DNA of 64,000 bases from Agarophyton chilense (taxonomy: Eukaryota; Rhodophyta; Florideophyceae; Gracilariales; Gracilariaceae), in contig JARGXX010000117.1 of assembly GCA_030374765.1 (NCBI GenBank), forward strand, positions 620,001 to 684,000, written 5' to 3'. Numbering within the stretch: the stretch's first letter is position 1; every line of letters begins with the position of its first letter. The notes under the pieces were generated by a model. That model saw only the letters and a list, made by a program, of their open reading frames with translations. It did no database searches and was not told the origin of the DNA. Positions 1 to 63,945 of this stretch are shown piece after piece. The translations under genes were made by a program, and so were the position numbers.

Positions 1-1817
1 CACCTAGAAGGATGTTGGGACTTACCTGAAGAAGATGCTTTGCAGAACACCGACATGGCAACGCAGATACTAACCCTAGAGAAAACGAACGTCATGCCCG
101 TAACCTGAGAGGAATTTCTACGAGGACAGGCCCAGGATGCGTAATGCAGAACCCTGGCTGACCAAATTGGTTTCAAAAGATAACCGTTCGATGTGGACCA
201 CAATGGGTATATCGTGAGAAGGTCAACCTTGGATGGTAGCCTTCAAAAGGTGGTTCTGAAGGCACTGCGCCCGACAGTCTTGTATCTCGGGCACTACCCG
301 CGACTATCGGGACACCCCGGTGCCACCAGGATGTATTACACCTTGAGGCAACAGTTCTACTGGCCTCATATGGCCCATGATGTCTATACCTTTGTAGGTC
401 AGTGCCAATCCTGTGTTCGTACCCGCGATGGTATTCGAAAGCATCAAAAATACCTCAAGCTGTTTCCAGCAGCGGATCCGCTGGAGTTTGTTGCGAAAGA
501 CCTTCTAGGACAACTTCCCAAGACCAAGAACGTGTATCAGCACATTCTGGGGATAATTGACAGGTTCCCGAAGCTCACGAGAGCGATACCTTTAAAGGGT
601 ACGAAGTCAACAACGCTGGCGATCGCGTTCCTCAACAATTGGGTCCACCCGTATGGCTCACCACTGTACCTACTCACCGATAATGGATCAAACCTGGCAT
701 CGAGTTCTTCGAAGCAGTCTGTAACCTCTTGGGTATCAAGCACTATTTTACGACTGCTTACCACCCGCAGACAAACGGACAGGTCGAGCGCTTTAACCAC
801 AAATTGGTATCAAGGCTACGACACTATACAGAAGAGCACCAAACTGGGTAGGATGAGCTGGTGCAACCGCTCACCTACTCCTATAACCTTCAGGTACACC
901 GGTCAACGCAGACCACTCCCTTTGATTTGGTTCTTTCGCGACACCCCCCAGGTATTGTAGTGCAGGGAGATCATACCACCAGCACTGCAGCTGGCGCACT
1001 GACGCCTGCCCAGGTCAAGCGAAATACGCTTGTGAGGTTGAGGAGGGCTCTCAAACATGCAGAGCGCCACCTCATTGCAGCCCAGAAGCGGTACAAGGCC
1101 GACGGCGACCGTAGGGTAACCGAAGTGGTCTCTGTATCTTCGGGAAAATATGTCTACATAGACAATCCATCCTCAAGTAAACGACCACGACCGGGTGATG
1201 AAGCGGACGATGAAGCTATTAATAGAGATATCAATTCGAAGCTTCTACCCAAATCAGTGGGACCTTATAAGGTATTGAACGCATCAGACCACACCGTTAC
1301 GGTTAAACAAGATGGAATACCGAATACGGTATCAATTGACCGTATTACGGTAGCACCTGAAACCGTTCAACATGGCATTGAGTCAGGCACCTTAGCCCGA
1401 GAGCCCAGAGCGGTAGCTCTGCGAACTCGACCCTCGGAGGACCCCACCCCAATTGAGGTAAACGATGACCTTCAACGGGATGATCCGGATTACAACCCTC
1501 TAACAGGGACGGAAATTGAACCTCAAACGGTAAAAGCGGGAGCTCCCGACCCGGCTCCCACACAGGAAGCTCCCAACTCGGAACCTATGAACCCTCGAGG
1601 TAGCGTTCCCCCGAAAGATCAGGACCAAACCTCAGAGAAATTTTCGGTTGACCGTCTGGTGGGCCACACGCGAACCTACAATGGTCTGAAGTACACCGTA
1701 AGGTGGTACAGCTGGGGGCCAGATGAGGACACCCTCAAACCCCCAGCCGCAATACCCCCACACTTCCGTATCAGGTATTGGCGCCGTCGCAAGGAGCAGA
1801 TGCCTGCAGACGGCTAA
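1..1817 (+). pseudogene. Integrase and chromodomain region of outer retroelement (fossil)
   Basis: An H-x-H...C-x2-C zinc-binding module (histidines in a YPRLSGHPG context, cysteines in QCQSC) is followed by the integrase core, with VAKDLLG and LLTDNGS carrying the first two catalytic acidic positions. It ends in a chromodomain (VDRLVGH, YTVRWY, GPDED). The order matches Ty3/gypsy chromoviruses and the inner element's integrase is clearly related. The region is degenerate and is annotated as a fossil, not a host gene. Confidence 0.85.
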
Positions 1818-2170
1818 CCTTAGACCTTAGTGGTGCTCAGGCCTAAGGAACGGGGAGAAAAGACGTCGTTCTCCACAGAAGGTGGACGCATATGCGTGTC
1901 AGATTACCTACAAGGGAGGACACGAAAGAACAACCGAATGTAACAGTAGAAGAGACAAGAAGAGACAACAATTTACTTGAAGAAGGAAACACTAAGGAAG
2001 TCAAGTGAAAAACGGCCGCCACAAGAACCTCAAAGGTGAAGCGACAGAAAGTCTAGCACCCGAATCCGGGAGTAGAAGGCCCTGTCCGTTTAGGAGCAGT
2101 GGGATCGGGAGGACCCGTGTTATTGACTACCCACGAAGGAAAACTGGCAGAAACGCTAGGATCCATCGAC
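1818..2170. other. Tail-to-tail spacer in outer retroelement
   Basis: This stretch separates the converging ends of the pol and antisense reading frames of the outer element. I see no coding signal of its own and no strong secondary structure. Confidence 0.5.
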
Positions 2171-3997
2171 CTAGGAGGTAGCGAAGGAGCGGTAGCCCCT
2201 CCACTGGGGAGAGGAGTCGAAACCAACAGAGGTTGAACGGGAGGAACCGCCGGAGTTGGTTGCAAAAACCGCAGGGTTCAAGGTAGCACCTAGAAGGGGA
2301 TCCGTCAAAGGATCAGAGGGCGCTGTAGCAGAGACGCTCGCCAGATTGGCAACCTGACGGGTGGCCAGTTGGTATATGTCCAACTTGAACTGATTCTGGA
2401 ACTCACCAAGCTGGTTCAGCGCCTTTATGTATTGCGCATGGAGCGGCAGCAAACCTTCAAGGAGCGTTAATGAAGCAACCACGGAGGTAGACCCAGCCTT
2501 CTGAAAGTTGGTGACGCAAGCCTGGTAAATTCGAGCCAGCAAACCGACCACGGCCGGAGAATCCATCATAGGTTGAGGCGGAGGACGAGCAATACCCGCC
2601 AACAGAGGTCGACCCGGACCAGCAACCCGCGAGGAGCTCGGTTGAGTAGGAGTCACACCCGTAGGGGTAGGCGACTTACGACCTTGAGGTAACGGCTCTG
2701 ACAGGAAGGGACCAGCATCACGACCAACCGGTGTCTCCGCAGTACCTTGATAAGGTTCGGGGCTCGCGGGAGCTCCATAAACAGGAGGCTCTCCGGGATA
2801 ATATTGGGCATGGTGAGGCAAAATCTTCCATGGTGCGGGATCGAAAGCCTCCCAACTTTGATGGGAATTCCAATGGTAATTCTTGCTCTGCTCGAAATGC
2901 GAGTCCAAACTCTTCACGGTATAATCGGTCCCCTGAACGATGTTCTCGTAACCAAATCGGAAAATATCCTGGATAACCCTCGGAGGTATGAAGAAGATGC
3001 GACCTACAGGTTGAACACTATCTGTGTATATATCCGAGTCGGGATTACGACAATCCCAATCGATACCGTAACGGGCGGCCTCGAGAGCCAGGATGGCAAC
3101 CAACACGGTCCACTCCGAGAGGGTATTCGACCAAATGAGGTAATATCGCTCTAGGTTCCGGGAGATCTGACTCCCGAAGTACGTCAAAACCGGCGGAGTG
3201 GGCACGCTCGGCGACAACGGAACCTCATAGGACTCCCACCAATCTTGTCGCAGCACGTACCGATCGCCTCTACCCTTCGTAGGTTGTGAGAAGTACTCGA
3301 CGTTATGAAACATATGCATAAAGCAAGTGTAAGAGTTGCGAGTGCGAACGCGACTCTCCGTCGCTGCACCCTCGCCCCACCTACTATGGTCAGCCCAATT
3401 GATTGTGGTGAAGGACCGACTCAGGGAAACCAATTCAGGTGAAACCGGAAGGTAAGTTTCCGGAATAAACGGGTACTGGCACACTCGCACCACCAATCGA
3501 CGGTAATAATCCAGATCCGGTTCGATATGCACATACGAGAAGTCGCTCGGATAGATCGGTGGGATGTAATAACTCAAAGGTGTATGACGCTGCCGGCTCT
3601 GGTAACATTCCATTCAACCCTAACGAGCTTGAGACTCTTGGTTCCTTTTCTTCAAGAGCAACGGGACGGAGCGGAAGCGCTCGCAGTCCCAACGGAACAA
3701 ACCCAAGTAGGTATCCAATTGCGGTCTAGTGAGAGCTGCTGGCAATGACGAATTCCCCACCGCCACAGGCCAATCGTGCTTCAACAGGTCACTGTGAGTC
3801 ACCTGGTCGAAGGCAATACCAAAAGGTTCATACTGATTCGTCGTCCGATTCGCCACATTAAACGCGGAATTGTGAGCCCAATTGGTTTGTGTTGTCGGAG
3901 GAAGTCCACCACTGTGTTGGTATGGGTCAGCCGGAGTCCCAGGGGAGAACTTTGTCGCAGGGAAAGGCACGCTGCGAAAACCAATATTGGTAAGCGT
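2171..3997 (-). pseudogene. Antisense ORF of outer retroelement, downstream part (fossil)
   Basis: A long reading frame runs opposite to pol between the chromodomain and the 3' end of the outer element. No known domain was recognised. It resembles the antisense ORF of the inner element (4937-6892): both contain RYVL, then WW, then PPV(L/I)TY(F/Y)GS, followed by a similar EW-rich helix-like block. The last third is rich in Pro, Gly and Ser. The inner element is inserted at 3997, and the part nearer this ORF's start resumes at 16027. It ends about 350 bp from the pol end, tail-to-tail. It is retroelement-borne and broken; its function is unknown. Confidence 0.75.
3993..3997. repeat. Target-site duplication AGCGT, left copy
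   Basis: AGCGT lies immediately left of the inner element's LTR and recurs immediately right of the other LTR at 16027-16031. Five bases is the usual duplication length for Ty3/gypsy integration. It shows that the inner element entered as one unit and that its two LTRs have not recombined with another copy. Confidence 0.93.
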
Positions 3998-4919
3998 TGT
4001 AGTGCAACGCCAAGGGCGGCGGAAACACACGAAGATGTCCGAGTCTTCCTCGAAGGAGGGTAGCACGGCGACGGAGCCTCTCCGGAGTGAACACGACTAA
4101 GTCGGGGTGTAAGGCCGAGGTTCACCGGCACGCCAAGCGGGGAGAGTGCGGGATGCTAGAAGGGAGCAGACCAGGTATGAGCTGTATTCCACGGGAGTAA
4201 GCAAGTCTCGAGATCGAGTAATGCACCCACAGGAGTGGCGGCAAACCCGGTAAGCCGGCGCGCGGCACACGCGCGAGCGGCACGAATACCCAACCACAAA
4301 GCAAAAGGGGGAGCTACCACGAGAGTGGGTAAGCGATAAAGGGGGGACCACCCAGTGGAGGCGATCGGGGGCATGGGCCACGAGAGCCAAAAGAAATATG
4401 TAGCAAACCCAATACTGGGGCGAGAACACGGCAGTGGTATGAAAGATATACACGCTAACAGCGGTGAGTCTCCTGTTAACGCAGGGTGGATAAGTCTACC
4501 GTTAGTAAAGCGGCTTCTCTTCCGTAAAGTGTGGAAGACTCGCGAAAGCAGAAAAAGACTTAGAGCCAAGAACCCTGGTTGGGAAGGTTTACTGAGTGTC
4601 AGGGCGAGATCGCCCTGGCACTATATAGTGTAGAATACTGTAAAGAGCTCCCTAACCTACTGTAATAAAGCTAAATAAATAGAGAAATATCCAGATATGC
4701 TGTGCCAACCTGTCCCGGGCCACCCGTGGTACACGTGGGTAAGTCACACCCGAATCGGGGCCACGGCGCACGGCCGCCGGTGCACTTCGCGTACAACGCG
4801 GATACACCTGGCTACGCCAGCCTGCTAGTAGCGGTATTACTCATAGATCTCACAAGTATCGCCCGAGGCGGAAAAACAACCAAGTCCTGGAAAACGGCCC
4901 TCACGAGGTTTTCACTTCA
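3998..4919 (-). repeat. LTR of inner element (3' LTR relative to pol)
   Basis: A 922-bp direct repeat of 15105-16026, starting TGTAGTGC and ending ACTTCA on the plus strand. It contains a perfect 12-bp palindrome CACTATATAGTG at 4619-4630 that can act as a TATA-like element on either strand, and AATAAA-like sequence just to its right. The left boundary is fixed by the AGCGT duplication, the right by the end of LTR identity and the polypurine tract. Confidence 0.95.
4619..4630. promoter_or_regulatory. Palindromic TATA-like element in LTR
   Basis: CACTATATAGTG is a perfect palindrome containing TATATA, inside the LTR. On the minus strand it could serve the gag-pol transcript when in the 5' LTR. 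On the plus strand it lies about 300 bp upstream of the antisense ORF. The copy in the other LTR is almost identical. Promoter function is inferred only. Confidence 0.4.
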
Positions 4920-4933
4920 TATCCCCCTCCTGA
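4920..4933 (-). other. Polypurine tract of inner element
   Basis: Read on the minus strand, this is an AGGAGGGGGATA-type purine run directly abutting the 3' LTR. That is the expected place and composition of the plus-strand priming site of LTR retroelements, and it confirms the element's orientation. Confidence 0.75.
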
Positions 4934-4936
4934 GGC

Positions 4937-6892
4937 GTGAATACGACATCCGCGATGGTGGGCGACGCGCCGAGACGAAGGCATAAGAGTGCAACCAGCT
5001 CGCTGGGATCCATTTCATCCGATGCCAACAAACGCAGTGCGGCAAAACTCCAGTCTCGTGGCAACAATCGTTCTCAACGTTCCATCTCAACCGAATCCGC
5101 ATCCTTGCGTGCCAGTCCTTCGATTCCTCGGCATCGTCTTTCGCTTCGCCGGTCTCCTCTTCCGGTCATCCGGCCTCTTCGCTCACCGATGAGCAACTAA
5201 AACAATCAACCCAACCGTCTCCCTGCGGGGTACTTCTCCGGCTTCCGGTCCGCTCCGCTTCCGCAAAACGCGTCATCGGCTGCGCCGCAGATTCCTATCG
5301 CGAACGCGGCTGCTGCTCCGTACGGAATGCTCCCCCCGAGAGGGTGGCCGCCATACGACATGCTTGTCGGGCGCCATCCTGGGCATCATGCGTCCGTTCT
5401 CCGGCTTGCGCCGTGGTTCCACCCGATTGCGGTGTTAAACGAAGCGCTCATAGCGATGTACACCGATGGAAACGGGATGCTTCCGGGCGATATTCCGGCC
5501 GTGGCGACAACTTTGTTGGATTGGCGACGCCGCGTAGAGGTTCCGGTCCATGCTGTGGCGCGCCGGGGTAGTGAAACCTCGGCTTCCGCTCATGCGGCCT
5601 TCGTCCTTCTTGGCCATCAACGGCTTCGCCGGGCTCCTTTCGAATATCCCATCCCCGATGGTCTCGGCATTGACATTCGGCATTACCGCACTCAAGGTGA
5701 GATTGGTTACGTCGACCGCCTGGTGGGTTTGGAAACACTCTCGTGGAGGGGCATCCCGATAGCACGGCAAGAGGCCATGTGCTGGACGCGACCGATTATC
5801 CGGGCAGAATTCCGCTACATGCGTCGACTTGCGCGGGCCAACTTCCTCGCCCTGATCCGCTTCGAGCGTTGAGCACGATCCCGATTCGGGTATTTGGTCC
5901 CGTATCAGAACGTGGAGATCGAACGCCTTCGCGTGGCCGACCGACGGGGTCGCTATGTCCTCATTCCACCGTGGTGGCCGAACCTCGAGGCCTGCCGGGG
6001 CTGTTACATCGAGCTGCCACCAGTCATCACGTATTATGGTTCGTACCTCATCGAGGATCCCGAGTCCGGACTGTAGTCCGTGGTGATTACCGAATGGGCA
6101 GTCCGCGCGGCGGTGTTCATCCTCTGGGAGGTGTATGACCAGTACAGACTGTGGTTCCTCCAGTTCCCGTTGAGGTCCGCGATTCGCAGCCTGGACCTGA
6201 GCATCTCACTTGGTGCAGTAACCAACGCCGAAGAAGTGGCGGGTCTTCTCGATTACATCGACCAGTTGGACTGGACCACCGTTCCGATTGAACAAAGCGG
6301 GCGCACCGTGGGTAGCCGGGGTGAGGACCTGTCACCAGGAAGGCGTACTCCCTTGGGAGGTGATTTCGTATACTTTGACCCTTGGGAAGGGCACGAAATC
6401 ACCGCGGAGGAAGCGAACGAACTCTGGTTTGCACCACGCCATATCCCCGAGGGGCATCCGATCGGTTCCGTGGACGCGGATGAATATTACCACGTCTACG
6501 ACGGCGACGATCCAATGGTGGACAACGAACCCGACGACGGGGAAGCGTACGCCGAGGCGGAGGTCGAGGGATCCGAAGCGGAAGGTCCCTATAACGCGGG
6601 GACGCCAGCCACGCCTTACGTGGATTTGGATAACCCCGCGGGGGCTGGGTCAGAGTACGCGGTAGCTGGACCACCTCCGGTTCCACCGGTGAATCTCCCA
6701 AGTGGTGAGGCGTCCGCCCCAGGCGATGCGAGCTCCGCTCCGGCGGGTCAAGCGGCCGTGATCTCCCAGTTCCTGCGACAGGTGGGGCTGGGGACCAACG
6801 CAGCGAGTGGCGATGTTGCCGCGATGCGCGAGGCCTTGATCACCCGCCTCCAGGGAGGTAACCAACCCGGGGGCGGTGAGCCGAACCCGTGA
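4937..6892 (+). pseudogene. Antisense ORF of inner retroelement (fossil)
   Basis: Coding-like sequence opposite to pol, beginning next to the 3' LTR and ending tail-to-tail with the chromodomain end. Its first part is basic and Ser-rich. The middle holds RYVL, PPWW and PPVITYYGS blocks shared with the antisense ORF of the outer element (2171-3997 and 16027-16625). The end is acidic then Pro/Ala/Gly-rich. No known domain was recognised. AATAAA at 6976-6981 follows its end. The copy has a few interruptions. Antisense extra ORFs downstream of pol are known in some plant Ty3/gypsy elements; whether this one is homologous to them cannot be told by eye. Confidence 0.72.
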
Positions 6893-6975
6893 CGGGGCAC
6901 GCGATCCTGATGGGGAGTTTTCCCTCGTGACTTAGAGTAGTATCCCGAGTGCGCGGTATTCCATCGATAGCTTCG

Positions 6976-6981
6976 AATAAA
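6976..6981 (+). terminator. Possible poly(A) signal after antisense ORF
   Basis: AATAAA about 85 bp after the end of the antisense ORF and before the pol end on the other strand. The position would suit 3' processing of a separate antisense transcript. The motif is short, so this is a weak call. Confidence 0.35.
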
Positions 6982-7071
6982 AACCAAGGGACTTGTGTAA
7001 CCCAAAACCTTCCTTCACTAGCCTGTTCTCAAGCAAACCTACTTCTCTTTTCTCTTCCACCGAGGTGGGTG

Positions 7072-10000
7072 TTATCTCACCTGGGCTTTAACAACCGATG
7101 CCGGGATTCCCGTCGGCGTTCTGCGGTGATATGACACCACCTTCGAACGTGGGAGATGTTCCATCGGCTCATCCGAATCCCATTCGGGCCCTAAACCGTA
7201 CCAACGGACGAGGTATTGAATATAACCATCCGGATGGTATGAGTGCTCCACTATGTGGTCGACCACGAACTACTTCTCGTAGACTTCCCGCCCTTGCGGT
7301 GTACGCGTCACCGGGCCAAACCGGTGTACGTCCGCAGGTGCGTGTGGGCTACTGTGCCCTTCCCCCGAGGAATCAATGGGTTGGCGTTGCCTTTCCATGC
7401 CCTGGGTAGGGGAACGAACCGGGTTCCGGGTTGCCTTGGCCGCTTGGCGGGTTGCTTCCGCCAAGGCGTCATGACGAAGAGCGTCAGTTCGACGGCTTCG
7501 GCCGGAGGCCTTCCCGTGGGGCAATTCAACCAGTTTTTGGGTCGGAATGCTTTCCGAGAATTCTCGTGCAGAGGCCACCCTTCGAGGGAACGCGGAATCA
7601 TCCCAAGGCTGGGTTTCGCGGTCGCGTTCCGCGAGTCGTCGGGGTGAAATCCGTCGCGACTGTGCTGGACTTGACGCGGGAGGCGGTTTCATCACGGGGC
7701 GTTGTGCCTTGCCGAGTGAGCCGCCTTGGGCGTTGATTGGCGTATCTCCTGAGCCGGGTGTCGTCTGGTCACGTGACACGTCCGGCTGATGGCTGGGAGT
7801 ACTCCGCGCCGTGCTGCGTTCCGCCTCCTCACGTGAGGGCGTGTGCAACGGCGCTGCCGGTATGTCTGCTCGCTTGGGCGACGAAGTACCGCGACGGGCG
7901 TGCAACTCCGTGTCAACTGTGCCTTCCTCACCAACGGGCGGCGAAGTGCGCGGCGAGGAACCCCTGCGGGGAGCGAGTTCGTCCTCAACTATCCCTTTCG
8001 AGGGTTCAACTTCACTCGGCGACGAGGTGCTTCCGTCCTTGACGGGCACATTCTCCGGGGTGACCGGTGGGCCTTCGACAACGCTTTCGGGGTCAACCGA
8101 GACACTCGGAGCGCGTCCGCCACTGCGCGCGGGTTCTGAACCAGCATCAAGCGTGCTGGGTGTGAATCTCCCGTCTGCTACGGTGTGCTTGCCCGGCTTA
8201 GCCGGTGTGTCCTGCCGTACAGTACGAGGGACCACTTCCGATCGATTCGGCCTAGAGGGGCCTGCGAGGGCGTGCTCTAAGTTTTCCAGCGTAGCTGGTG
8301 TCGACGAACCGTGACCCACGGGCTGCGGGTCAACGCTCGACGGCATAGCCGGTCCAGTATCGCGAGGGCGAACAGCATCCTGCGACGATTTTGATTTCGC
8401 TTCGGCGAGAGGGTTTCCACTACGTGGTGCGTCCTGTAGAGTAGAGTCCCCGTGTGGAATGCAATCAGACGCAGATGCGGTGGCGCTTCCCATAGAGGGT
8501 TCAGCAACGGCTGTAGCGCGCAAATGCGGAGATGGCACATCGGTAGACGGGACGTCCGGATCACCGTTGTTCTTGCTGGTGTGTCCAGGAGTTAGTGCAC
8601 CACGGTTGTCATGACGTGACGAAGCGGTTTCCGTCTCTCGACGAGAGTTATGAGCCTCCTCCCCCTCCTGAGACGGAGCGGCATGGGGAGTGGTTGAAAC
8701 GCCCAACAGGCGGGGGTAGACATCGGGCCGTGGCGTGAGAGAAGAAAGGCCATTCTAGCCTTGGTCCGATGAGATCGGCAAGTCAGAGAGTCCCCGGGTA
8801 GGGTGTGGTAACGCAGAAGGTCTGGAAACCACGGCAGTGGGCTGAGCCACTGTTGTGTGCCGAGCACCATCATCCTCAGAGAGGGATTGTTGACCCATTT
8901 CGGTTACTTCCAACGTCGGTGGCGGGGCGAGTACAACGCGGTCGCGGGAGATCCGCTCATGAGCGTCGACAATTTCCACCACGATGATGTCGTCTTTCAC
9001 CGAAATGACCTTGTAAGGACCGTCCGCGACGGAAGAAAGCTTGTGCTTCTTTTCCTTTTCAGGGTTCCATTACTCCTTACGGACGAAGACGAAGTCACCG
9101 GCTTTGATTGGCGGGGCCTTACTGCGTACGCGAGAGTCGAAATCACGCTTGTAAGTGGCTTGGGCACGAGCCATCGAGCTTCGGGCGACCGGGATCAGCT
9201 TCGTAAGCCACTCTTTCCACCTGTGGCGATAATCCTTCACGGAAGGGAACGCATCCAGCGTGGGCTGGGGTTCTAACGCGACAGCGGGCGGAGGGCGGGA
9301 CAAGACCAGTTCGAATGGAGTCAAGCCCGTAGTACGGTGTACCTGCGTATTGTACGCGAACGTCAAGGCGTCGGTATATAAATCCCATGTCTTTGGGTGG
9401 TCGGCCCCGTAAGAACGGAGAGACGCTAATAGCGTTCGGTTAAACTGCTCCACTTGCCCATTACACTGGGGGTGATAGGTCGTTGTGAACAGGTTCTTGA
9501 TGTCAAGAATCCTGCACACGTCCTCGAAAAATCGCGATGCGAACTGTTTTCCGTTATGGGATAGAAGATTAACCGGCGGGCCGTAGACGAATACCCAATG
9601 TGTTACAAATGCTTGTGCAACCGTGAAAGCGGATATCTTCCGTAGAGGTACGGTCCGAACCAGTTTTGAGAAACGATCCGTGATAACGAGTAAAAACTTA
9701 TGTCCACGTCGTGTGGTGAGGAGCTTACCGAGGATGTCAATGGCGACAAACTCGAGAGGAGCCCGTGCCGGGAATAGTTTCAACTTCGTTGAGTACTTGC
9801 GAAGTTTCACCCGATTCTTAGCACATTCGGTACAAAACCGCACCGTTGCGTAGCAATCCACCGCCATGGCGGGCCAGTAGAAATTCCTTCGCAAAGTGAG
9901 GTAGAGCTTCCGTCCACCGGCGTGTCCACCAAGTTTCGCATAGTGCGATAGATGCAAAACTCTAGACTGTAGAGTATGCGGCACCACGACTTGTGGGGAT

Positions 10001-10376
10001 GACTGAACCGTCCTGACGAGGTATCCAAGATCGTTCAACTCGAAAGGGAGTTGTGCACCGCCATTAAGCCAGGCGCGAATCTTCGTACAGAAGGGGTCAC
10101 CCTGCTGTTCTCTGACCATCTCCTCCGGGGGTATCGGCACAAAATACCCGGCGGGGGTTTCTCTGAATCGTCCGAGACGAGCAATGCGTCAATATCATCA
10201 TCTGATTCCGGGCTTTCGTTCCATTTATCGTGTAACCAATCCGGGTCCCCCGGTGTTCCATCGTCTACGACGAAGCAAGGTATATCCTCGTCATCGACGG
10301 CTAGAGCTTCCCCATTCGTGGGTAAACGCGAGAGGGCGTCCGCTTGCGCGTTCTGAGTGCCCTTCTTGTAGATCAC
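7072..10376 (-). pseudogene. Integrase, linker and chromodomain region of inner element (fossil)
   Basis: The integrase has an N-terminal H-H-C-C module (histidines in a SHYAKLGGHAG context, cysteines in FCTEC) and a core with VAIDILG and a D-N-G-K stretch, then TTYHPQCNGQVEQFNR containing the catalytic glutamate. A hydrophilic linker of roughly 500 residues, rich in Pro, Ser, Thr, Glu and Arg, separates it from a chromodomain (VDHIVEH, YLVRWYG, GPEWD, EPMEHLP). The long linker is unusual for the family. The region is interrupted in several places and is a fossil. Confidence 0.85.
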
Positions 10377-10406
10377 TTCAAAGTCATATTCCGCGAGGCG
10401 GAGTCT

Positions 10407-12776
10407 CTAACGCATTAAGTGGCCTGACGGCTCCAAGATGGCCATAAGCCATCGTAGGGACGATTGATCCGTGTAAACGGTAAAGTGCACACCCATGAGG
10501 TAGGGGCGGAGTGTAGAGAGGGCCCACACAACTGCGAGGCACTCCTTCTCCGACACGGAGTAGTTCCGCTCGTGGACATTGAGCGAGCGTGACCAGTACC
10601 CAATGGGTTTGCGTTCTCCTTCGGGAGTAGTTTGAAAGAGCGCACAGTCTACCTGGTAGTCGCTAGAGTCCGTGTCCACGGAAAACGGTAGTCCGGGTTT
10701 CGGTAACGATAGAATCGGTGCTGATGTGACAGCCTCCCTAAGGGAGTTAAAAGCATCCGTCTGGGCGGACGTAAAGGGGTCCAGTTTAGGTGGTTGACCT
10801 TTTCGCAGAAGCGCGTTCAAGGGGGCCGCGATGTCAGCGAAGTTAGGGATAAACCGTCAGTAGACGTTTACCAATCCTAGAAAGGAGCGAAGTTTCGTCT
10901 GGGTAGCGGGTTCTTTCGCCTTGCGAAGGGACCTCACTCGAGCTTCCTCGATCATTACACGTCCCGGACGGATAATGTGCCCGAGATACTTCACAGTATC
11001 GGTAAAGAACTCACATTTCCTCAGTTTGAGGGTTATTCCAGCATCACGTAGCGTGGTCATTATGTCCCTGACATGGGTGAGATGGTCATCCAGATTGTCT
11101 AAGAATACAATGATATCGTCCAAATAGACGAGGCAAGTACGCCACTTAAAGCGGGCCAACGAAATGTCGATAGCACGCTGAAAGGTAGCGGGAGCATTGG
11201 TTAGACCAAAAGGAATCCGTTTGAAACGGTAGAGTCCCGAGTGACAGACAAATGCAGTCTTATCTTGGTCCTCCTCCCTAACGGGAACCTGCCAATATCC
11301 CCAGTTGGCGTCCAAAGCCGTGAACACGGTAGCAGTGCCGAGAGAGTCGATGTACTCATCCATTCGTGGGATCGGATACACGTCCTTGACGGTAACATCA
11401 TTCAAGCGACGGTAGTCGATGCAAAAGCGCCAGGACCCATCAGGTTTCGGAGCCAGTACCACTGGGGATGCCCACGGCGACTGAGCCGGTTCGATCACTC
11501 CAGCTCGGAGCATTTTTTCCACTTGGAACTGTTCATCTTCTCGAGCCTTGGGGCCTGCCCTGTAAGGGTGTTGAGCCACCGGTCGGGTGTTCGGCAATAA
11601 ATCTATCCGGTGTTCCGTTGTATTTATCTCACCAAGAGAGCCATCCGAAATTGTGGTAAACTCCCGTAACATCTCACGCAGACTTTCACGGTGTGACTCC
11701 GGTACATGACCGAGGTCGAGTTCCTCGAGTTCTTTCACGGGGTCTACCCGGTCGTAACTCGTCGGAACGGGCTTCTTTTCTGTTTCGGCAGGTTGCGATT
11801 CCGAATCATTCGGTGATTGGACGGCAGCTTCCTCCCCCTCCTTAGAGTGAACGAGACCGAGGACTTTGGCAGCGGTCAGCCTAGTGGGGACCATCGGGGT
11901 GGGGTGAGGCATTACCGATCCAATAACTTGGGTTTTCACCAGTGACTGGGGGGTGGAGCCCAGATTGGCAACGAGCACGGTGAACGGCTTGTCTGGGACA
12001 ATCTGCGCGACTCCATTCGCCACGGCGAGTTGATATCCATCGTACAGAGATGAGAGAGGCTGAATGACTCGTAAACCGTGTTGACGGGAAGTGACACGCA
12101 CCCATACTTGGGACTCTGGCGGGATTCGGACAGACGCAGCCACGCGGAGCTTGGTAGACTCCCGAGAAGCGGGTGGAGGTTTCTGCGCAGCAGGGAGCGG
12201 TACGTGCTTCTTGGAGGCACGCCGCAGCGGACGACGGACAATCGGGACCGACGAGCCGTCTTCCATCTCAACACGCTTTAAGCGGGGCCTTATGGCGTCA
12301 ACGAATCTGTCACAGAAGTCACATCCCAAGATGATGGGGGCAGCCAATTTCCGGCGTACAATAAAGTCGAGTTTCACCACGAAGGAGCCCAAGCGAACGA
12401 CGAGAGCGACGGTTCCAACCGTTGACAACGGGTTGTTATTCGCGTCCGCGATGTCGGGCGCCACGCCAAGGCGGATCTGAGACCGCAAGGGTGGGGGCAG
12501 CAGCGACTCCACGATGAAATTCGGACCAGCACCTGTGTCCAAAACAGTAAGGACTCGAACCATAAACTGGGTAGAAAGGCCAAGGTCGGCATTCACCTTG
12601 TAATTGCGCTTGGCCATTACTAAGACTCTATCCGGGAACCGGCGGTTAAGAACACGTGTCCACGGTCGACATAGAACACCAAAGTGTTCAGAGTCCACGT
12701 CTGAGACGGCCTGTTTCCTCGTGAGGATTGTGACCGGGGAGCGAGGCGGAGACGCCTCGGGCGTCGTCAACCTCAC
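10407..12776 (-). pseudogene. Protease, reverse transcriptase and RNase H region of inner element (fossil)
   Basis: In order: an aspartic protease with VLDTGAGPNF; a reverse transcriptase with FCIDYRRLN, FTALDANWGYWQV, FGLTNAPATFQ and the catalytic YLDDIIVF; an RNase H with VDTDSSDY, NYSVSEKECLA and YTDQSSLRWL. All are textbook Ty3/gypsy pol motifs in the usual order. The region is slightly interrupted. Confidence 0.93.
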
Positions 12777-12814
12777 TGTTGGGGACGCCTCTCCCGAAGG
12801 GGAGACTCCCGAAA

Positions 12815-15007
12815 TCAGTTTTCCTTAGTCCCATCCGCCTGGGGCGGGGCCTCAGAATCCTGAACCACTAGCAATGGGGCGCCAGCGGCGGGGTTTGAAG
12901 GAACGGGGCGGTGGTCGGGAGCCTGCTCGGCAGGGTAAAGCAACGCATTGCGCAGTTTCGCCTCCGGAATACTCCGTGGAAAATCGATCTTCGCTCGAAG
13001 ATACGACGTCATCGGAACAATCCGCTTTTCCACTGGGGTCAACGCCTCATAATTACCGATTACTCGGGCTACTTCCCTCATGGTGAGGATACAGTCCGGT
13101 GAAATGTGACCGTGTTCGTAGCATATGTGGCATATGAGTCCCGGGCGTGAGGGTTGCAAACCGGAGCGAGCATCCGTGAACTTCACCGCTTGGCGGGTAT
13201 CCTTCCATCCAGGGCGACTCTGTCGGAGCGCACCGTTTGAATACGGGATGCGAGGTCCGTGAACACGGGGAGAGTCTGCGTACAGCAGGGGTCCATCCTG
13301 GGCCATGCCATATGAGTCGTCCGTCGTAGACGGTAGTTCGGTTGTCGGGACCGAATGGATGTCGCTTCGGGCGAAGTGTACGTTGTCGTACTACTGTTGG
13401 TGGCGCTCAATCGCAACCAGCGATAGGGATGGCGACTTCGTTTCCATCACCAACGCCTTGGCGGTTCGCGACCTGTGTCCGGGGGCACGAGCTCTTAAAG
13501 CGTCACCTTCCGCTTGCGCGTGTTGGACCAACTCCAGATACGTGGTCTTCCTTCGGTGTTCCCGGTAATGAGCCACGAGTGTTCGGATAGCGGGGTCCAG
13601 TCCATCGATGAACATGGTGCAGCGCTCTCCGGCGGAGTGTACGTTCCCACTACGGTGGAAAGCCTTGTTCAGGCGCACCGAGAATTCGGTTTCCGTTTCT
13701 CCAGACTTCCGGCGCGTATCGCGAAGAGCGAGAATGGCCGACTGAATCGCGTGATTAGTGGCGTAGGACCTCAAGAGGTATTGTACTGCTTCTGGCCAGC
13801 AGGTTGCCCCTCCTTCGGAGGCTTTAGACGAACCTCTTACAGAGTTCTATTGATCCTCGGCGAGGCCTTTCATAAAGTACGGGAGTGCAAAAAACGCCTG
13901 TCCTTCGGTCATACCGAGAATATCCGCTTCGGCGACGAACCTCGCAAGGAAATCCAACACCAAAATGGGGTCTTCTCCAGAAAAGCTCTGGTTCCTGAGA
14001 GACAGTTGCATACGCTTTATGCAATCCTTCATTCTACCCGTGCCACGGGGCGTGCGATCCAAAGAGGAGTTCTCTAGCCGATAGTATCGGTAAGAAACCA
14101 ACTTCTTGTACAGGGGGTTGGTGCATTTCAGCTCCTTCAACCCGGAGTGTTTCCTTCCCTTCTCGCGGGCGCGGATCACACCTTGGGTGTCAGACGACCG
14201 TTTAGAACGGGATGAACGCCTGCGATGGCCATCGTCAGAAGACGAATCTGACGAGTCCGACCCATTTGAATGGTGAGAGCCACGCGACGACCGTGAGGAG
14301 TTCGACGAGTCCGAGTCATCGCTGTCACGCTTTCCACGCCGACGGCGGGTATCGTCCCTTTTCCTCTCGTTTTTTGCTTGGTGCGACACAGCAACCGGCT
14401 TCTCCGGGACGTCTTCCATCAAGATGGTTTGCTCTAACGTCTGGAGACGGGCGCTAACACGATTGAATCGGGTCTCGACACCTTCCACGTAAGCGGCGGG
14501 ACCACCAAAACATTCCAACAGGGTGTTGACGTCCGCCCGCAACAAGCGGAGGTCGTCAACCACTTCCTTCATAGAAGAGCCATCACACCTGGAACGCCGG
14601 GCTTCGAACTCTTCCACGAAGGCATTGTGCGCTTCCGGCATTACGCAGATCTGCTGCCTCACATTTGAGTTGGTGTCGATGTGGAACTCGTTTTTCTGGG
14701 CCTTTTCGTCGGCAGGAGCCGGGTCATCCACGGCAGGGGCCGGTTCAGCACCAGAATTGGGTCCATTCTTCGACGCCTTAGGCGGTAGCTTGTTGTTCTT
14801 GGAGGAGTTCGACCCCTTACTCTTGCCTTTCGGAGCGGCTTGAGGTAGCGGCGGGGGAACCCTTCCAGGGTCTGCAGGCACCACGTCATTGACGGAACGG
14901 TTCCGCGTGATCGCGGGTTCCGCTTCCGACGGTAGTCGTGACATGGTTGTAGCGTTGACCACTAAGAATAGGACAACAAAAGCTTCCACCAAGTGGGTCC
15001 AAACCAA
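12815..15007 (-). pseudogene. Gag region of inner element (fossil)
   Basis: The Gag-like region opens with a Pro/Ala/Lys-rich segment, then a helical block, an Arg/Asp/Ser-rich stretch, a retrotransposon-gag core (ALRDTRRKSGETE, TMFIDGLDP) and a CCHC knuckle (CHICYEHGHISPDC) near its end, just before the protease. The knuckle and position identify it. It is broken. Confidence 0.85.
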
Positions 15008-15084
15008 GAAATTGGAAAGCAGATCTCGACGAGAGAAGACAGCACAGCAATGTGAAAAACAACCAAACCAGGTCCCCCTAGCCT

Positions 15085-15101
15085 TCTAAGTCGGGAGACC
15101 A
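15085..15101 (-). other. Primer-binding site of inner element
   Basis: On the minus strand, three bases after the 5' LTR, the sequence reads TGGTCTCCCGACTTAGA. A TGG start just inside the LTR is the mark of a tRNA 3'-CCA primer site. I could not assign the tRNA isotype by eye. Confidence 0.65.
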
Positions 15102-15104
15102 GTT

Positions 15105-16026
15105 TGTAGTGCAACGCCAAGGGCGGCGGAAACACACGAAGATGTCCGAGTCTTCCTCCAAGGAGGGTAGCACGGCGACGGAGCCTCTCCGGAGTGAACA
15201 CGACTAAGTCGGGGTGTAAGGCCGAGGTTCACCGGCACGCCAAGCGGGGAGAGTGCGGGATGCTAGAAGGGAGCAGACCAGGTATGAGCTGTATTCCACG
15301 GGAGTAAGCAAGTCTCGAGATCGAGTAATGCACCCACAGGAGTGGCGGTAAACCCGGTAAGCCGGCGCGCGGCACACGCGCGAGCGGCACGAATAACCAA
15401 CCACAAAGCAAAAGGGGGAGCTACCACGAGAGTGGGTAAGCGATAAAGGGGGGACCACCCAGTGGGGGCGATCGGGGGCATGGGCCACGAGAGCCAAAAG
15501 AAATATGTAGCAAACCCAATACTGGGGCGAGAACACGGCAGTGGTATGAAAGATATACACGCTAACAGCGGTGAGTCTCCTGTTGACGCAGGGTGGATAA
15601 GTCTACCGTTATTAACGCGGCTTCTCCTCCGTAGAGTGTGGAAGACTCGCGAAAGCAGAAAAAGACTTAGAGCCAAGAACCATGGTTGGGGAGGTTTACT
15701 GAGTGTCAGGGCGAGATCGCCCTGGCTCTATATAGTGTAGAATACTGTAAAGAGCTCCCTAACCTACTGTAATAAAGCTAAATAAATAGAGAAATATCCA
15801 GATATGCTGTGCCAACCTGTCCCGGGCCACCCGTGGTACACGTGTGTAAGTCACACCCGAATCGGGGCCACGACGCACGGCCGCCGGTGCACTTCGCGTA
15901 CAACGCGGATACACCTGGCTACGCCAGCCCGCTAGTAGCGGTATTACTCATAGATCTCACAAGTATCGCCCGAGGCGGAAAAACAACCAAGTCCTGGAAA
16001 ACGGCCCTCACGAGGGTTGCACTTCA
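15105..16026 (-). repeat. LTR of inner element (5' LTR relative to pol)
   Basis: A 922-bp direct repeat of 3998-4919 with the same TG and CA ends and about 17 mismatches. Followed immediately on the right by the AGCGT target duplication. Confidence 0.95.
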
Positions 16027-16031
16027 AGCGT
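16027..16031. repeat. Target-site duplication AGCGT, right copy
   Basis: AGCGT directly after the inner element, matching 3993-3997. It marks where the outer element resumes. Confidence 0.93.
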
Positions 16032-16625
16032 TCGAGAAGCAGAGCGAGTCACCCTCTTTGTAATACCACCGCGTCCATGGCCACGCGATGGGACGCTACC
16101 TGACATGGTTTGGAAGGCAGTAGCTCCAACCGATGAACGAGGTAATGACTCGACCTCCACCGCCGCGTGGAACACCAGCGGGTATTCATCCTTCTTCAGT
16201 GACGCCTCCTCGGTCCGTTCCGAGGAGACGGCAAACGTATCCAACCTTTCCAGTAGTACCGACACCGACCTTTCAGGTGCAACAGTTTCCATCCTACGAG
16301 GGCGAGCGGGTCCAGACCTTTGAGGTATCGTGGAGCGGGACCAATCCGAACTTAAAGGCATAACTTCAGGGGTATCAATCCCCTCGGAATCGCCGACTTC
16401 TTCAACCTCAATGGTAACCGGCACCTCAAGTCTCTCGAGCACTTGTGCCGCCTGTGGGAACGACCCACCCCTTCGAGGCATCGGTGGCGAATCCACGATG
16501 CGGCGCAAGGTGCGTCGACGAGGCACCGAATGGGTTCGAAAGCGCGCGTGGAGGTGTCGTGATCCTGTCATAGCCTTGAAGGTAAACCAGAGTGTAAAAA
16601 TGGGAAAAGGTCGCGCAATTACCAA
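16027..16625 (-). pseudogene. Antisense ORF of outer retroelement, upstream part (fossil)
   Basis: The reading frame on the minus strand belongs to the outer element and is cut off from its other part (2171-3997) by the inner insertion. It begins with a short basic, Arg-rich stretch followed by a Ser/Glu/Pro-rich segment, similar in character and position to the start of the inner element's antisense ORF. No known domain was recognised. Fossil. Confidence 0.65.
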
Positions 16626-17822
16626 CGGGGCGACTCAACACCAATAAGGTCTCACAACCGGAAGCTTCCACCACGGACCCAGGCCAACACTTCAATGGTT
16701 GTATCGACTCAGGCTCAGGCCCAACAGGCGCCACGAATCAATCCTTAAAAGGTAGAAGAAACGTGAAAGGTCGAGAAGCCAGGAAAACTTCAAGGAAAGC
16801 CGGACAGTACGATTACGGTCGCGACGCCGCCAATTAAGGGCAGCAATACCTGAACGGTTGTCAAACAGTGGGATCGACCAGATGGGACGGCGCGCACAGG
16901 GACCTAGGAGAAAAATGAAGTTTGAGCAACCGAGAAAGAAGCGATACCGAAAAGGTGTCCGCGAGCGCGCTATTGACACTGCATCGTTCTCATGATAGTC
17001 CCTATCTGAATGGTTGTCTCTCAATTCGTGCGCCGCCGTCGCCGCTCGCACTCCCCAACCGACACTGGCACCGAGTCCTGAACTTCAATGGATCACGCGT
17101 CGCGCACCGTGAACAACCGCCGGCGGACACCACTCCGATGCCCGCGCCGCTTTCGCTCGCTATACCTTTATGGTTTGATGGAAGGAGAAACGGGGCGTCT
17201 CTCACGAGTAGAAAGAGGCTCTGTCGTATAGTGGCAAAAGGTCTGACCTTTGAGGTTGTCGATATACTACACTGACCTTGTAGGTGATAGACGCGAGGGA
17301 TCATCGGCCATGCAGCTCCGGGCGAACTACCGTCTAGGTGTTGACAGCCACGTGTAGTGTTCACATGTACCTTCTGGTTGAGTAATTGTAATTGTAATTA
17401 TATTTATTCTAGTACAGTAGTGGAGTGGCCACCTGGCACTGTAGCCAGTGCTGGCCAGGTCTCTGACACTAGGTTAGAGACCGTGCTTTGCTGGCACCTC
17501 CCGGGTGATCTGGAGAGTGCAATCCACTGCATATAGGAAACTGCACCTTCTCCACCCTATTCTGATAAATACAGGCACAACTTGGGTCACAACTATACCT
17601 TTTGATTCATTGTTTCTCAACTACCACATAGGTTTTACCGCGCGTCGACGCCTACTATCGTTCACCTACACGGTATAGGCTAGATGTCCCGCCATTTGCT
17701 CTTGCGGGTTTTAACGGTGCCCTGTTACCATCGAAGTTTATCACGTCTACCTTCTAAGGTTGAGCGTCACCACGCTCCCTAGACAAGACAGTAGCATACC
17801 CCAGAGGTGATTGTACGACACA
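16626..17822 (+). mobile_element. Right end of outer retroelement, probably including its 3' LTR
   Basis: By analogy with the inner element, the 3' LTR of the outer element should start close to the start of its antisense ORF, near 16.63 kb. The stretch ends near 17.82 kb, where composition changes abruptly to AT-rich. It contains an AT-rich TATA-like patch near 17380-17410 and two small inverted repeats (about 17427-17460 and 17457-17481, the latter with a GGTCTCT/AGAGACC stem). No second LTR copy is in the window, so the exact ends are unresolved. Confidence 0.5.
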
Positions 17823-47471: not shown

Positions 47472-50400
47472 TCAAGAAAATGTTTCATACAATTCTGAAT
47501 TCATCCTCTCGGCAACGAGTTTCACGATTCTCTTATGGACGGTCACATTCAGACCGTGATCCTTTGGTACAATGGCTTCTATCAGGCGATGTCTTGCTGG
47601 GGCCCGACTTATCGCACTCTGTAAATCGGAAATAGTTTTGACCGGAATGTAGTCAATTCCAAACATACAGCACGCACTTCCGAAACTTATGCCGTGGGCA
47701 GTGTCGAACACAGGCGAGAACACATCCTGATGCTTAGCAATTGGTAACATTGAGAAAATTCCCCCGCCTCCGTTGTTGATAACCACAACAGTTACAATCA
47801 CTGGTATTTCGTTATCCTTATCCTTGTTACGTAGAAGATGAAGAGCGTTCAAGTCATGAATCATGGACATGTCACCGACAACAACCACCACGTCCGTGTT
47901 AAGACCAATTCCAAATCCAATACCAGAACAAAGCAGTCCGTCGATTCCGCTTGCACCCCGATTTGCTGCCACTCGGAATCTATACCCGAGTCTCCTTGTC
48001 CCGGCAAAGCAATCAAAGTCTCGGATTGGCATGGAGTTCCCGATGAAAAGCGAACAAGATTTAGGAAGGCTTTTAGTGATTACTCGAGCACAACATGGCT
48101 CCGTCAACATACCGTTGTCTGGGGAACTTAGCAACTCACTTAAGAGTACATCCACGGAGTCGGATAAATGCTTCAACTCCTCCATTTTTTTAGACACTGG
48201 CTCTTGAGAGGTTTGAGATTCGTTCACGTCAATTCGTGTCGACGAAACAGGTCTTAGATTCCTAAATCTCATGGATAGTGTCTCTTCAAAAGTTGCTAAG
48301 AACACAGGAATATGACCTTCTATTCTGTGAGTTACAGTTAGTGATGGATCCGAAGGCCTTAAGGTAGGCGATACTATCACATGAACAAAATCCTTGTAAG
48401 TACGACTGCAATCCTGAATGAGATTTAGAAGCCTCTTCGATGTTATTCTTTCTCCAAATTGTAAAAAAGAACGGAAGGTCATTCGGCTCTTTGACAGACT
48501 AGAACAAAGCAACAGGTCTGCATAATGTATGAGATTCGGAAACTCTCTCCAAAGGCGAACACCGCCACAAACGTCAGAAATCACCGGCCAGTTAAGAAAG
48601 CTTGCAATCTCCAGAACAGACACAGCTTCGTCGTCCGTTCGGACAGAACCGGAACCCCCTGCGATGACGATAATACCATCCGGTTGGTTCTTCAGATCTT
48701 GTAATAGTGTTGAGGAATCTTGAGGAAGGGAGTGGAGACTTTGCCGCGCACTTTTAGTAGCTACCAGAGCTGCGAAGTGATGAATACCGTAAATAGTGGC
48801 AGGATTCAAAGAGTTGAACCAATGTCTGTCAACGGCAGTAATATACTGTCGATCCCAGTCTTGATGGTCTGGAGCAAGATTTTCTCGAAACATCATATTC
48901 ATATGAACCGGGCCCCTCAAGAAAGTTGCTTGACCAAGCTCTCTTGTACGGGTGCTGCTGCCGCTCATTCTAACAGCTAGATCAACGTTCTTTACTAAGT
49001 ACCTTAAAGGTATATCTTCGGTTGGACACGGAACATCTGTAGACCATACCACGTAGGCCCCAAAAATTCCAACTTGGTTGATAGCTTGGTTGGCCCCAAC
49101 GTCTCGGAGTTCAGGAGGTCTATCTGCTGTTAAGAAAATCAAAGGAAGAGAATCAGTACTTGCCTCTACAGCTGCTGGTAAAAGATTTGCCACAGCTGTT
49201 CCAGAACTAGTGATGACAGCGGCAGCTCGGCTGTTTGCTCTTGCAAAACCTACAGCGAGAAATCCCGCGCCACGTTCATCGTGGCCAACAAAATATCTGG
49301 CGTGCCGAGATGTAACAGCTGCTACTGCAAGCGGGGCAGAACGGGAACCAGGGGCAATGAAGAAGGTATCTACGCCGTTTCGACATAGTTCTTCTACACA
49401 ACACGATGCCCACAATGCATTTAGATTCGGGTGCAAATGCAATGCCGAAGCGTCCAGACATTTTCGTCGCAAAAGCATGGTAGTTTCCGAGTCACGAATA
49501 ACACCGGAAGGGTTTGACCTGTCATTCTGGTATGAGAGAGAGCTTTTCGATAGATGAATATTTCGTGGGCAAGCGTTTTTGCATTTTGGACGAATGTCCG
49601 TACTGGTGGAATTCTGGTTGACGCAACTTACCTTTTCTTGAGAGCTTTCCAAGTCTTCTTTAAAACGACTGTGATGGTACAGTTCTTTCCTGCGCGCAAC
49701 ATATGATAGGGCTTGCACGCAGTTTACTGAAAAAAGATCTGTTAATGCAGACATCTTCAACTCTGTTTCGTCCCACTCCGACTTTGTCTCAGAACCGGCT
49801 ACAATCCCACTCCCAGCAAAGGCGATGAGCTCATTGTCGTGTAGAACGGCAGATCTGATTGCGACACAAAATTCGGCTGCCTCAGTAGAAAACCAACCAA
49901 GAGGGCCAGCAAATAATCCTCGATCAAAACCTTCTAGCTTTCGGATTTCGGATTGAGTTTTCTCCCGTGGTTGACCACAAACAGCTGGGGTAGGGTGCAT
50001 ACGATCCAAGACTTCGTACGCTTTATCGGACACATCGCCAGAACAATTGGGAAATCGGCCGTCAATTTTCGTCACGAGGTGCATAAGACGGGCAAGCTTT
50101 TTGACATAGGGTCCGCTAGTCTTGATATCAACTTTGCAATCGGTCAGTATATCCTTGACATGACCAACAACATATCCATGCTCGTCCATATTCTTCTTAT
50201 TCAACAACTGCTCCAGTTCTACTGCTTCCTTCTCGTCTGGTCCTCTTCGAACAGTTCCTGCTAGGGCCTCCGTTTTTATCTCACGGTCTTGAAGACGAAA
50301 GAGCATTTCTGGTGTGTAACTAATAAAGGCTTTTCCATGTCCAATTTGAAGGCAGAAAAGATAGCTTCTTTGGACGTCGCAGGACTCCTCAGAAATATCC

Positions 50401-51296: not shown

Positions 51297-52234
51297 TTTA
51301 GACTTTGGCTCTGAGAAGACTCCTTGCTTCTATCTGCACACGGCAGTCCTTTTCCAGAGTTGACGCCTAACCTTCTTGGCTGTTGTGCTCTAAGAACAAG
51401 ATAGTGATGCTGCAGCAAACCAAAGAGTATGCCTAGAATCAAAAGAATTGTTTACAAGACAGGGTCGTAGGGACAATACTGTTTGATTTTCCACCAAAAA
51501 CGGCTAGCTTTAGCTCGTCACCGAGTCTTGCACAAATTCATCCATGAAGGGTGGCCAGTGGATGATGGACAGAAACAGTGCTTTTTGCTTAGAAAATGAA
51601 GGACCGAGCGCTGCCGTTGTTCTTGGAATACTCTGCGTGACTAGCGAGAGATAGAGACGAAGCCACACGTTGTAGATGCACCTCGTAGAGATTTAACTGT
51701 ATCAACGAAAGTGTAAGATGCCATTGGACGATACGAAATGCTGGGAGACTTCAAATATGCATAAAAATTTGAGCTTTTCACTACTCTATGATCTCCCTGC
51801 AGCTCGTTGCAGGATCAACCTTTCTTCTTCTTTGAGAGTGTGCCCAGACACCGCAAGGACGTGGACAGCAATACCCACCTGAGCTCACAAACTCTAAAAT
51901 CGGCCTTTGCACGCCACTGAACAGAAAGTTTTCAGCTTTTGACCGCGATGTTTGGTTTTCATGCTCGCCACATCACAAGAGACCCATGCTCTTTCTTTTG
52001 TCAGAAGAGATGAATCTGAGTCCTTACGAATTACCGAGAGCACTTTGAGCAAAATCCTTGGATCTGTCCTCATTTCGTTCAACACCATTGCTTTATATAT
52101 ATATATATATATAGTCATATACTTATACTGCAGGACCGCTCTTCTTCTTGTGAGGCTGAAGGAGTCGGTAAAAGAGTTGATCTGGTTTTTATGAAGACGA
52201 AAGAACAAGCCTTCATCGGACAAAAACGCAAGAA
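51297..52234. other. Divergent promoter region of MenF-MenD and MenB genes
   Basis: The shared upstream region of two genes of one pathway. It contains a TA dinucleotide run at about 52093-52114. No separate gene is supported; a minus-strand frame overlapping the MenB start is a shadow. Confidence 0.55.
52093..52114. repeat. TA microsatellite
   Basis: About eleven TA units in the divergent region, about 120 bp upstream of the MenB start codon. Confidence 0.85.
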
Positions 52235-62880: not shown

Positions 62881-62929
<49 letters not shown>

Positions 62930-63399
62930 TGATGACGACGATGACGATGACGGGGGCAGACGCGGAGGCGGCGCGGCGCGTGGGGCGCGCGCTTCTGCGA
63001 CGGTGGGCGCGCGCAGTGGCTCGCGACATGCTGAGCGCTCGCGGGGGCGCCGGCGCGCTGCGCTGGCGACTGTGGCCCGCGGTGGTGGAGGGGCGACGCG
63101 GCGGCGGCGACGCGACGGGGGCGGCGGCGGCGGCGCTTCACGGCGAATTGCGCGCGCGCGCGCGCGCGCTGGCGCTGGTGCTGGAAGCCGAGCGCGACGT
63201 GCGCGGCATTCGCGCGCTGCGCCTGTCGGCGCGCTCTGGCGCTGGCGCTGGCGCTGGCGCTGGCTCTGGCACCGGCACCGGCACTGACACGCGCGCGGGC
63301 GCGGGCGCGCGTGCGCCGCGCGTGCGCGCCGCCGCGCAGCTGCTGCTGGAGCGCGCGCGCGTGCGTCTGCGCGTCGTGCTGGCACTACGCGCGCGCTGA
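57409..63399 (+). CDS. TamB/Tic236-like translocation and assembly protein, plastid
   Basis: A 1996-residue single-exon protein. Residues 1-60 resemble a plastid transit peptide: Ser/Ala/Arg/Cys-rich, few acidic residues (VCIASCVATARLRSRP). One transmembrane helix at about 139-158 (LTCATSLLSILGIICVSYV). Then a very long beta-rich region (AsmA/TamB type: VGRVARCNPLTGITLKNVHI, many repeated G-x-V/L strands), ending in a TamB (DUF490) C-terminal region. TamB in bacteria and Tic236 in chloroplasts span the space between inner and outer envelope and support outer-membrane protein insertion or preprotein import and lipid movement. The DUF490 region contains inserted low-complexity segments: Gly-rich runs, a run of about 15 Asp (GAC repeat) near residue 1825 with Met/Thr repeats after it, and an Ala/Gly/Thr-rich tail. 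Composition of the last 2 kb is very GC-rich, G on the coding strand. Confidence 0.88.
62883..62927 (+). repeat. GAC trinucleotide repeat in coding sequence
   Basis: About 15 GAC units in frame, encoding poly-aspartate in the C-terminal part of the TamB-like protein. Likely length-variable between strains. Confidence 0.9.

Positions 63400-63914: not shown

Positions 63915-63945
<31 letters not shown>

Follow-up and report, generated by a model that had tools for sequence, protein, structure and literature searches.

A family of antisense genes between pol and the 3' LTR of chromodomain Ty3/gypsy retrotransposons in the red alga Agarophyton chilense

The window analyzed here, a stretch of 64,000 nucleotides of the Agarophyton chilense genome (assembly GCA_030374765.1, contig JARGXX010000117.1, positions 620,001 to 684,000; G000:C117:620001-684000), holds two nested long terminal repeat (LTR) retrotransposons, each with a long antisense open reading frame (aORF) opposite to pol. 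At least six element families (A-F) carry the aORF at the same site and in the same orientation, and in family A it has been shown to be under purifying selection at the protein level. Because the aORF has been kept by selection, the element probably needs it. On balance, we lean toward the view that the aORF is an accessory gene of a red-algal group of chromodomain Ty3/gypsy elements, that an antisense promoter within the 3' LTR drives its expression, and that it encodes a nucleic-acid-binding regulator. A first-pass annotation of the window had described, in both elements, an antisense ORF located after the chromodomain and before the 3' LTR and ending tail-to-tail with pol, and the window coordinates confirm this arrangement. 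The extent that it gave, 2171-6892, is too short: the outer frame has a further 5' portion at 16029-16571, on the far side of the nested element.

How widespread is the aORF? The assembly searched comprises 79.8 Mb in 135 contigs; match counts are lower bounds, since part of the candidates was scored, and a few identical matches are possibly assembly repeats. With the A ORF of the window as query, at least 89 A-like aORFs of 77-100% identity were found among 1,670 candidates, nine of the 89 being free of stops across the matched stretch. A 181-residue B query gave at least 150 matches, 80 of them at 88-100% identity, many with an open frame of 652 codons, and 70 at 56-65%. Families C and D are 50-54% identical to B across whole proteins, family E is the 42-44% identity class, with 57 of 98 matches (four copies were fetched), and family F has seven aORF copies of 94-100% identity. 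Pairing of integrase and aORF was counted over families B and F. Downstream of 61 of the 67 B integrases (92-100% identity) an aORF lies on the opposite strand at a median distance of 3,204 bp, and in 37 of these 61 pairs the distance is 3,203-3,204 bp; for three of the remaining six, all on contig C22, the shorter query had missed an aORF, which brings the count to 64 of 67. An aORF also stands beside seven of eight F integrases of 79% identity (paired by eye). Integrase and aORF are tail-to-tail in C copies L059-L061 (one with a partial integrase), in the single D copy examined (L051), and in three of the four fetched E copies (L062-L064). The annotation had named the absence of the antisense ORF from other members as a refutation, and other members do carry it.

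Two suspicions proved wrong: family E does not lack integrase, since three of four copies keep it and the fourth, L055, is a deletion, and the gag seen beside the aORF in C copy L034 belongs to a nested B element. In L055 (G000:C99:1979000-1986000, at about 5712) the integrase was lost by one internal deletion, and the aORF is open over 640 codons. The eighth F integrase (L067/L065, G000:C68:2780111-2788000) belongs to a copy in which a 1,589-bp gap within the aORF removes about 85% of it; the pol frame of this copy stays open for about 1,900 codons, and both flanks of the gap align with the sister copy. One further integrase (C21:171225, 78%), possibly a ninth of family F, has no aORF among the matches listed. 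In the LTR area of F copy L066, upstream of the aORF, an ORF at 1614-2471 on the minus strand looks by eye like a Harbinger-type transposase. Three B integrase/aORF pairs follow each other in one orientation at 7-10 kb spacing in G000:C22 1511174-1532772, either as a tandem array or as an assembly repeat, and their integrases have equal scores. Identical scores also occur among A aORF matches (G000 C13:7242, C109:948549, C110:15316 and C110:50708); these are possibly duplicated contig ends, and three of the four are no more than about 52 kb from the start of a contig.

Judged by sequence and profile comparison, the A and B antisense products are homologous. The RYVL..WW and PPV(L/I)TY(F/Y)GS blocks that the annotation had noticed are present in both window products. 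BLASTP aligns the window A ORF with an open B copy over about 180 residues (E 1e-10), and hhalign aligns a profile of four A sequences with a profile of ten sequences (B-E plus two outside relatives) at 97.8% probability and E 7e-13, over 244 columns that include the WW and PPV..Y.GS blocks. Chance likeness between A and B was rejected on this hhalign result, and the number of copies (at least 89 A-like and at least 80 B-like) together with selection excludes a chance origin of the aORF. Integrase identity to B is 72-76% for C, 77% for D, 71% for E and 41% for A, and aORF identity to B is 52%, 51%, 42% and 28%, respectively; divergence of the aORF between families tracks that of pol.

Selection was assessed by mapping changes on a tree, with expectations derived from the mutation spectrum of the data, CpG context included. 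The family A set consisted of 14 distinct copies of the 89, eight of them top-ranked and six picked as stop-free; L017 and L019 were dropped as duplicates of L003 and L005, and L006 is absent from the pol control. BLAST pieces more than 4 kb away or overlapping, matches covering less than half of the reference and, in one data set, pieces of less than 75% identity were also dropped. On internal branches, the A aORF has 90 synonymous and 78 nonsynonymous changes, a ratio of nonsynonymous to synonymous rates (dN/dS) of 0.35 (0.26-0.48), and one stop against 13.7 expected. Terminal branches carry 363 synonymous and 754 nonsynonymous changes and 23 stops, with a dN/dS of 0.84 (0.74-0.95), which is expected of dead insertions. 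The 3' part of A pol, in 13 of the 14 copies, gives 0.35 (0.22-0.54) on internal and 0.82 on terminal branches. During the life of the element, the A aORF is thus under as much constraint as pol; after insertion the constraint is relaxed. A dN/dS near 1, which the annotation had named as fatal to its reading, is found in A at the tips alone.

Across the A aORF region, the remaining five frames have internal dN/dS values of 0.49-1.78, the lowest belonging to the antisense frame that shares third positions. The first 465 nt of the A frame (155 codons) give an internal dN/dS of 0.69 (0.41-1.15), and nt 466-2463 give 0.25 on the whole-gene tree and 0.41 when the tree is rebuilt from nt 466-2463 alone; the difference between 0.25 and 0.69 has a p value of 0.006, the first value being tree-dependent. 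The 5' 155 codons may largely be non-coding leader, in which case translation would start at a later methionine. With four copies each and all branches counted, dN/dS is 0.71 (0.55-0.92) in family C and 0.63 (0.44-0.91) in family D. Between families B-E, the proportion of nonsynonymous differences (pN) is 0.33-0.43 and that of synonymous differences (pS) 0.70-0.77 (B versus C: 0.34 and 0.71); dS is saturated, and of the three codon positions the third differs most.

In the window, the inner element (family B, 3998-16026, pol on the minus strand) is nested inside the antisense frame of the outer element (family A, pol on the plus strand). The features, by window position, are:

695-1814, plus strand: outer A, 3' part of pol, with the integrase end and the chromodomain (1635-1808)
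2074-3992, minus strand: outer A, 3' part of the aORF, frame broken; the longest readable ORF is 3613-2171 (480 aa)
3998-4919, no strand assigned: inner B, 3' LTR, the proposed seat of the antisense promoter for the B aORF
4955-6889, plus strand: inner B, aORF, frame broken in the window, with open copies of 645 aa elsewhere; the ATG position is 35 bp from the LTR end
7078-7299, minus strand: inner B, chromodomain end of pol, tail-to-tail with the B aORF; 53% identity to the family E chromodomain
9070-12776, minus strand: inner B, reverse transcriptase region (10857-12776), RNase H (10407-10820) and integrase (9070-10140)
12815-15007, minus strand: inner B, gag region, assigned by position only
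15105-16026, no strand assigned: inner B, 5' LTR
16029-16571, minus strand: outer A, 5' part of the long aORF frame, severed by the nested B element; 86% identity to an open A copy over its 5' 543 nt
17221-17820, no strand assigned: outer A, 3' LTR, matching the 638-bp LTR of copy L017/L018

The LTRs of the inner element are 922 bp long and 98.2% identical, and they are flanked by a 5-bp target duplication, AGCGT, at 3993-3997 and 16027-16031. A second LTR copy of the outer element was not found within the window. Both aORF frames are broken here: that of B, which is 97.3% identical to an open copy across 1,935 nt, is readable in pieces only, and that of A is split by the B insertion and damaged further. 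Copies with open frames are present elsewhere in the genome.

The carriers are chromodomain Ty3/gypsy LTR retrotransposons. Pfam RVT_1, RT_RNaseH_2, Integrase_H2C2 and rve match the inner B element above their cut-offs, in the gypsy order of reverse transcriptase, RNase H and integrase; its gag region has no credible match to a Pfam gag family. At the end of pol, the family E chromodomain scores 33.9 bits, above the Pfam Chromo cut-off of 25.1, that of family A is weak at 17.4 bits, below the cut-off, and that of B is homologous to the chromodomains of E and D. Target duplications of A copies, read by eye, are GGAAA on both sides of L017/18, GGCAC on both sides of L032/31, and a pair with one mismatch at L019/20. 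Among the 150 chromodomain matches of the genome search there are many in frames without a link to families A-F, some with far higher scores.

Further along the window, genes of the host look plastid-related by eye; taken with the outside relatives of the aORF product, they indicate a Gracilaria-like red alga as host. Long single-frame ORFs at 47472-53197 resemble a fused isochorismate synthase/MenD and, 0.9 kb on, MenB, which would make them adjoining phylloquinone genes. An ORF of 1,996 aa at 57409-63399 looks TamB/TIC236-like and has runs of the (GAC)n type near its end; GC content is high, at 74% in 62001-64000.

Where is the antisense gene transcribed from? Three open B copies have the LTR end at 1093 and the ATG at 1129, a gap of 35 bp. 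Counted by eye to a similar TATCCCCC-type boundary, the distance to the ATG is about 35 bp in C, 47 bp in D, 81 bp in E and 97 bp in F; the boundary was measured against an LTR pair in B only and was judged in C-F by the shared polypurine-tract motif. Because there is little room for a promoter between the LTR end and the ATG, transcription of the antisense mRNA should start inside the 3' LTR, which would mean that the LTR carries an antisense promoter. For family B, we strongly infer from this spacing that the aORF promoter lies inside the 3' LTR. By coordinates, A has a longer leader, with about 0.7 kb ahead of the long frame's first methionine and about 1.2 kb ahead of the later one, beyond which selection is stronger.

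The aORF product is about 590-670 aa long, if the later methionine is assumed in A. In one protein examined per family, the B-E products have an acidic tail and no strongly hydrophobic stretch, hydropathy maxima over 19 residues being 0.93-1.70 in B-E and 2.09 in A. Ten arginines are invariant, and one more nearly so, between B residues 279 and 333 in ten sequences (B-E and two outside relatives). The annotation recognized no domain, and neither did the searches. Pfam gave nothing credible for five antisense pieces (E up to 1) or 18 aORF proteins (E up to 10), nor did PHROGs for six proteins or PDB sequences for a nine-sequence profile; Caskin1-CID (9.6) and TetR_C_31 (0.29) in Pfam and an 8t0b chain (0.47) in PDB were dismissed as chance matches. 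With the second of two AlphaFold models, Foldseek returned two PDB and 39 viral matches, none with E < 0.001, a result treated as uninformative. A scan of viral contigs gave seven pattern matches, none of which was confirmed. Protein searches scored the best 7,990 or so candidates sharing most words. Among the matches listed, the outside homologues are a hypothetical protein of Gracilariopsis chorda (BWQ96_03215, P0001; E 3.8e-245), two unnamed products of A. chilense (P0003 and P0004; E 2.2e-256 and 1.9e-82), all three clear homologues under record names that carry no link to retrotransposons, and one metagenome protein (P0002). No fungal protein is among the matches listed.

Antisense ORFs between pol and the 3' LTR are described in the plant elements Retand, Grande, RIRE2 and PvRetro13 and in fungal Boty (PMC7264820); in the accounts consulted in PMC7264820 and PMC11963269, their roles are given as undetermined and the Grande product as nuclear. 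The aORF-3R of Retand, Grande and RIRE2 in flowering plants, as described there, has the same layout as the red-algal aORF, and the likeness to Boty of Botrytis is by description alone. Retand is assigned to a non-chromovirus lineage with the TRP28 domain PF04195 in 97% of clusters (PMC11963269), whereas the red-algal carriers have a chromodomain. PF04195 was found in none of the 18 aORF proteins (E up to 10), and its one genome match, which scores below the cut-off (20.2 bits, E 0.05), coincides with none of the aORF places listed. The plant parallel drawn in the annotation holds for layout and fails for this domain and for the host, a red alga. The Grande promoter is described upstream of gene23, whereas in family B only 35 bp separate the ATG from the LTR. 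We found no earlier description of the aORF of red algae in the open-access literature; the layout is known already, and the protein family and the host lineage appear to be new.

HBZ, the antisense regulator of human T-cell leukemia virus (HTLV), is a short bZIP protein. The HTLV-1 gene resembles the B aORF in being antisense, near the 3' end and served by an antisense promoter within the 3' LTR (PMC7264820), which in B is deduced from the 35-bp gap. Unlike HBZ, the aORF product has 590-670 aa and no Pfam match, bZIP included (five pieces, E up to 1; 18 proteins, E up to 10). In the mechanism that we favor, the antisense promoter of the 3' LTR would drive the aORF mRNA, the arginine-rich conserved core, with the acidic tail of B-E, would allow the product to bind nucleic acid, and the product would regulate the RNA or transcription of the element in the nucleus, as has been proposed for Grande and Retand and as in the case of HBZ. 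Both nucleic-acid binding and a regulatory role we infer from charge and analogy. A more specific version, which we put forward tentatively and hold to be somewhat short of an even chance, is that the aORF is an orphan family (red-algal sequences and one metagenome protein, among the matches listed) with a 3'-LTR antisense promoter, borne by a whole group of chromodomain elements, and is an algal counterpart of HBZ-type regulators whose origin is independent of the plant and retroviral ones.

A different role, and an unlikely one in our estimate, is counter-defence: the product would act against host silencing by small RNA or chromatin, in the manner of viral silencing suppressors. Conflict with the host would fit the greater divergence of the aORF than of integrase (B-C 52% versus 72-76%), and opposed transcription units might give double-stranded RNA on read-through. 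However, gag is also strongly divergent (A versus B 32-36% in the matched parts), so fast change of the aORF is not special, and the aORF matches no described family. Less likely still is that the product is structural or resembles an envelope protein, or that it serves as a second particle protein of low abundance. The protein is long, its core is conserved, and A has the stretch with hydropathy 2.09, but no 19-residue stretch of the B-E examples exceeds 1.70 and no Pfam envelope or gag family was matched; the antisense position, moreover, is unusual for structural genes. That a separate transposon or host gene has landed in these elements is very improbable: the homologues listed are confined to red-algal sequences and one metagenome protein, which leaves room for such an origin, but in six families the aORF has the same site and orientation, enclosed by the LTRs, its spacing from the B integrase is almost constant (median 3,204 bp, 61 of 67) and its divergence tracks pol, and its position refutes an independent element as the present state. 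Least of all do we credit a conserved antisense RNA or DNA element near the LTR with the ORF as a by-product, a reading close to refuted: the upstream frame of B enters the LTR end and polypurine-tract motif, where conserved sequence could be non-coding, but selection in A is frame-specific (0.35 versus 0.49-1.78 in the other five frames), which led us to reject a pure antisense RNA, A has one stop where 13.7 are expected, and third positions differ most between families.

Several observations weigh against an accessory gene encoding a nucleic-acid-binding regulator. In family B (18 copies, eight top-ranked and ten picked for open frames), no selection is detectable, internal branches having 14 synonymous and 26 nonsynonymous changes with a dN/dS of 0.82 (0.43-1.57) and tips 0.92 (0.76-1.12); there are too few internal changes, so B alone is undecided, and the annotation's claim of selection on the protein is supported by A and by a pN far below pS between families. 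Copies were chosen by rank or open frame, which biases the sets toward few stops. No aORF domain or fold match was obtained and both AlphaFold models are poor (mean predicted local distance difference test scores of 37.3 and 44.0), which makes any biochemical role a guess based on charge and analogy. Nineteen of the 80 B aORF places have no partner among the 67 integrases listed. The aORF survey covered families A-F, and the genome has further chromodomain families (150 matches scored of 1,935 candidates). The F copy without about 85% of its aORF and the E copy without integrase indicate that such copies can persist or spread, perhaps helped.

That same F copy provides a natural comparison for the role of the aORF. 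The ATG of the B aORF, 35 bp from the LTR, makes the promoter question directly testable, and the many copies allow exact tests of selection. The red-algal elements have, at the site known from plants, a second protein family, for which no similarity to the plant family was detected, in many open copies and, in A, under clear purifying selection. Its presence suggests that the antisense layout arose repeatedly and answers to a general need.

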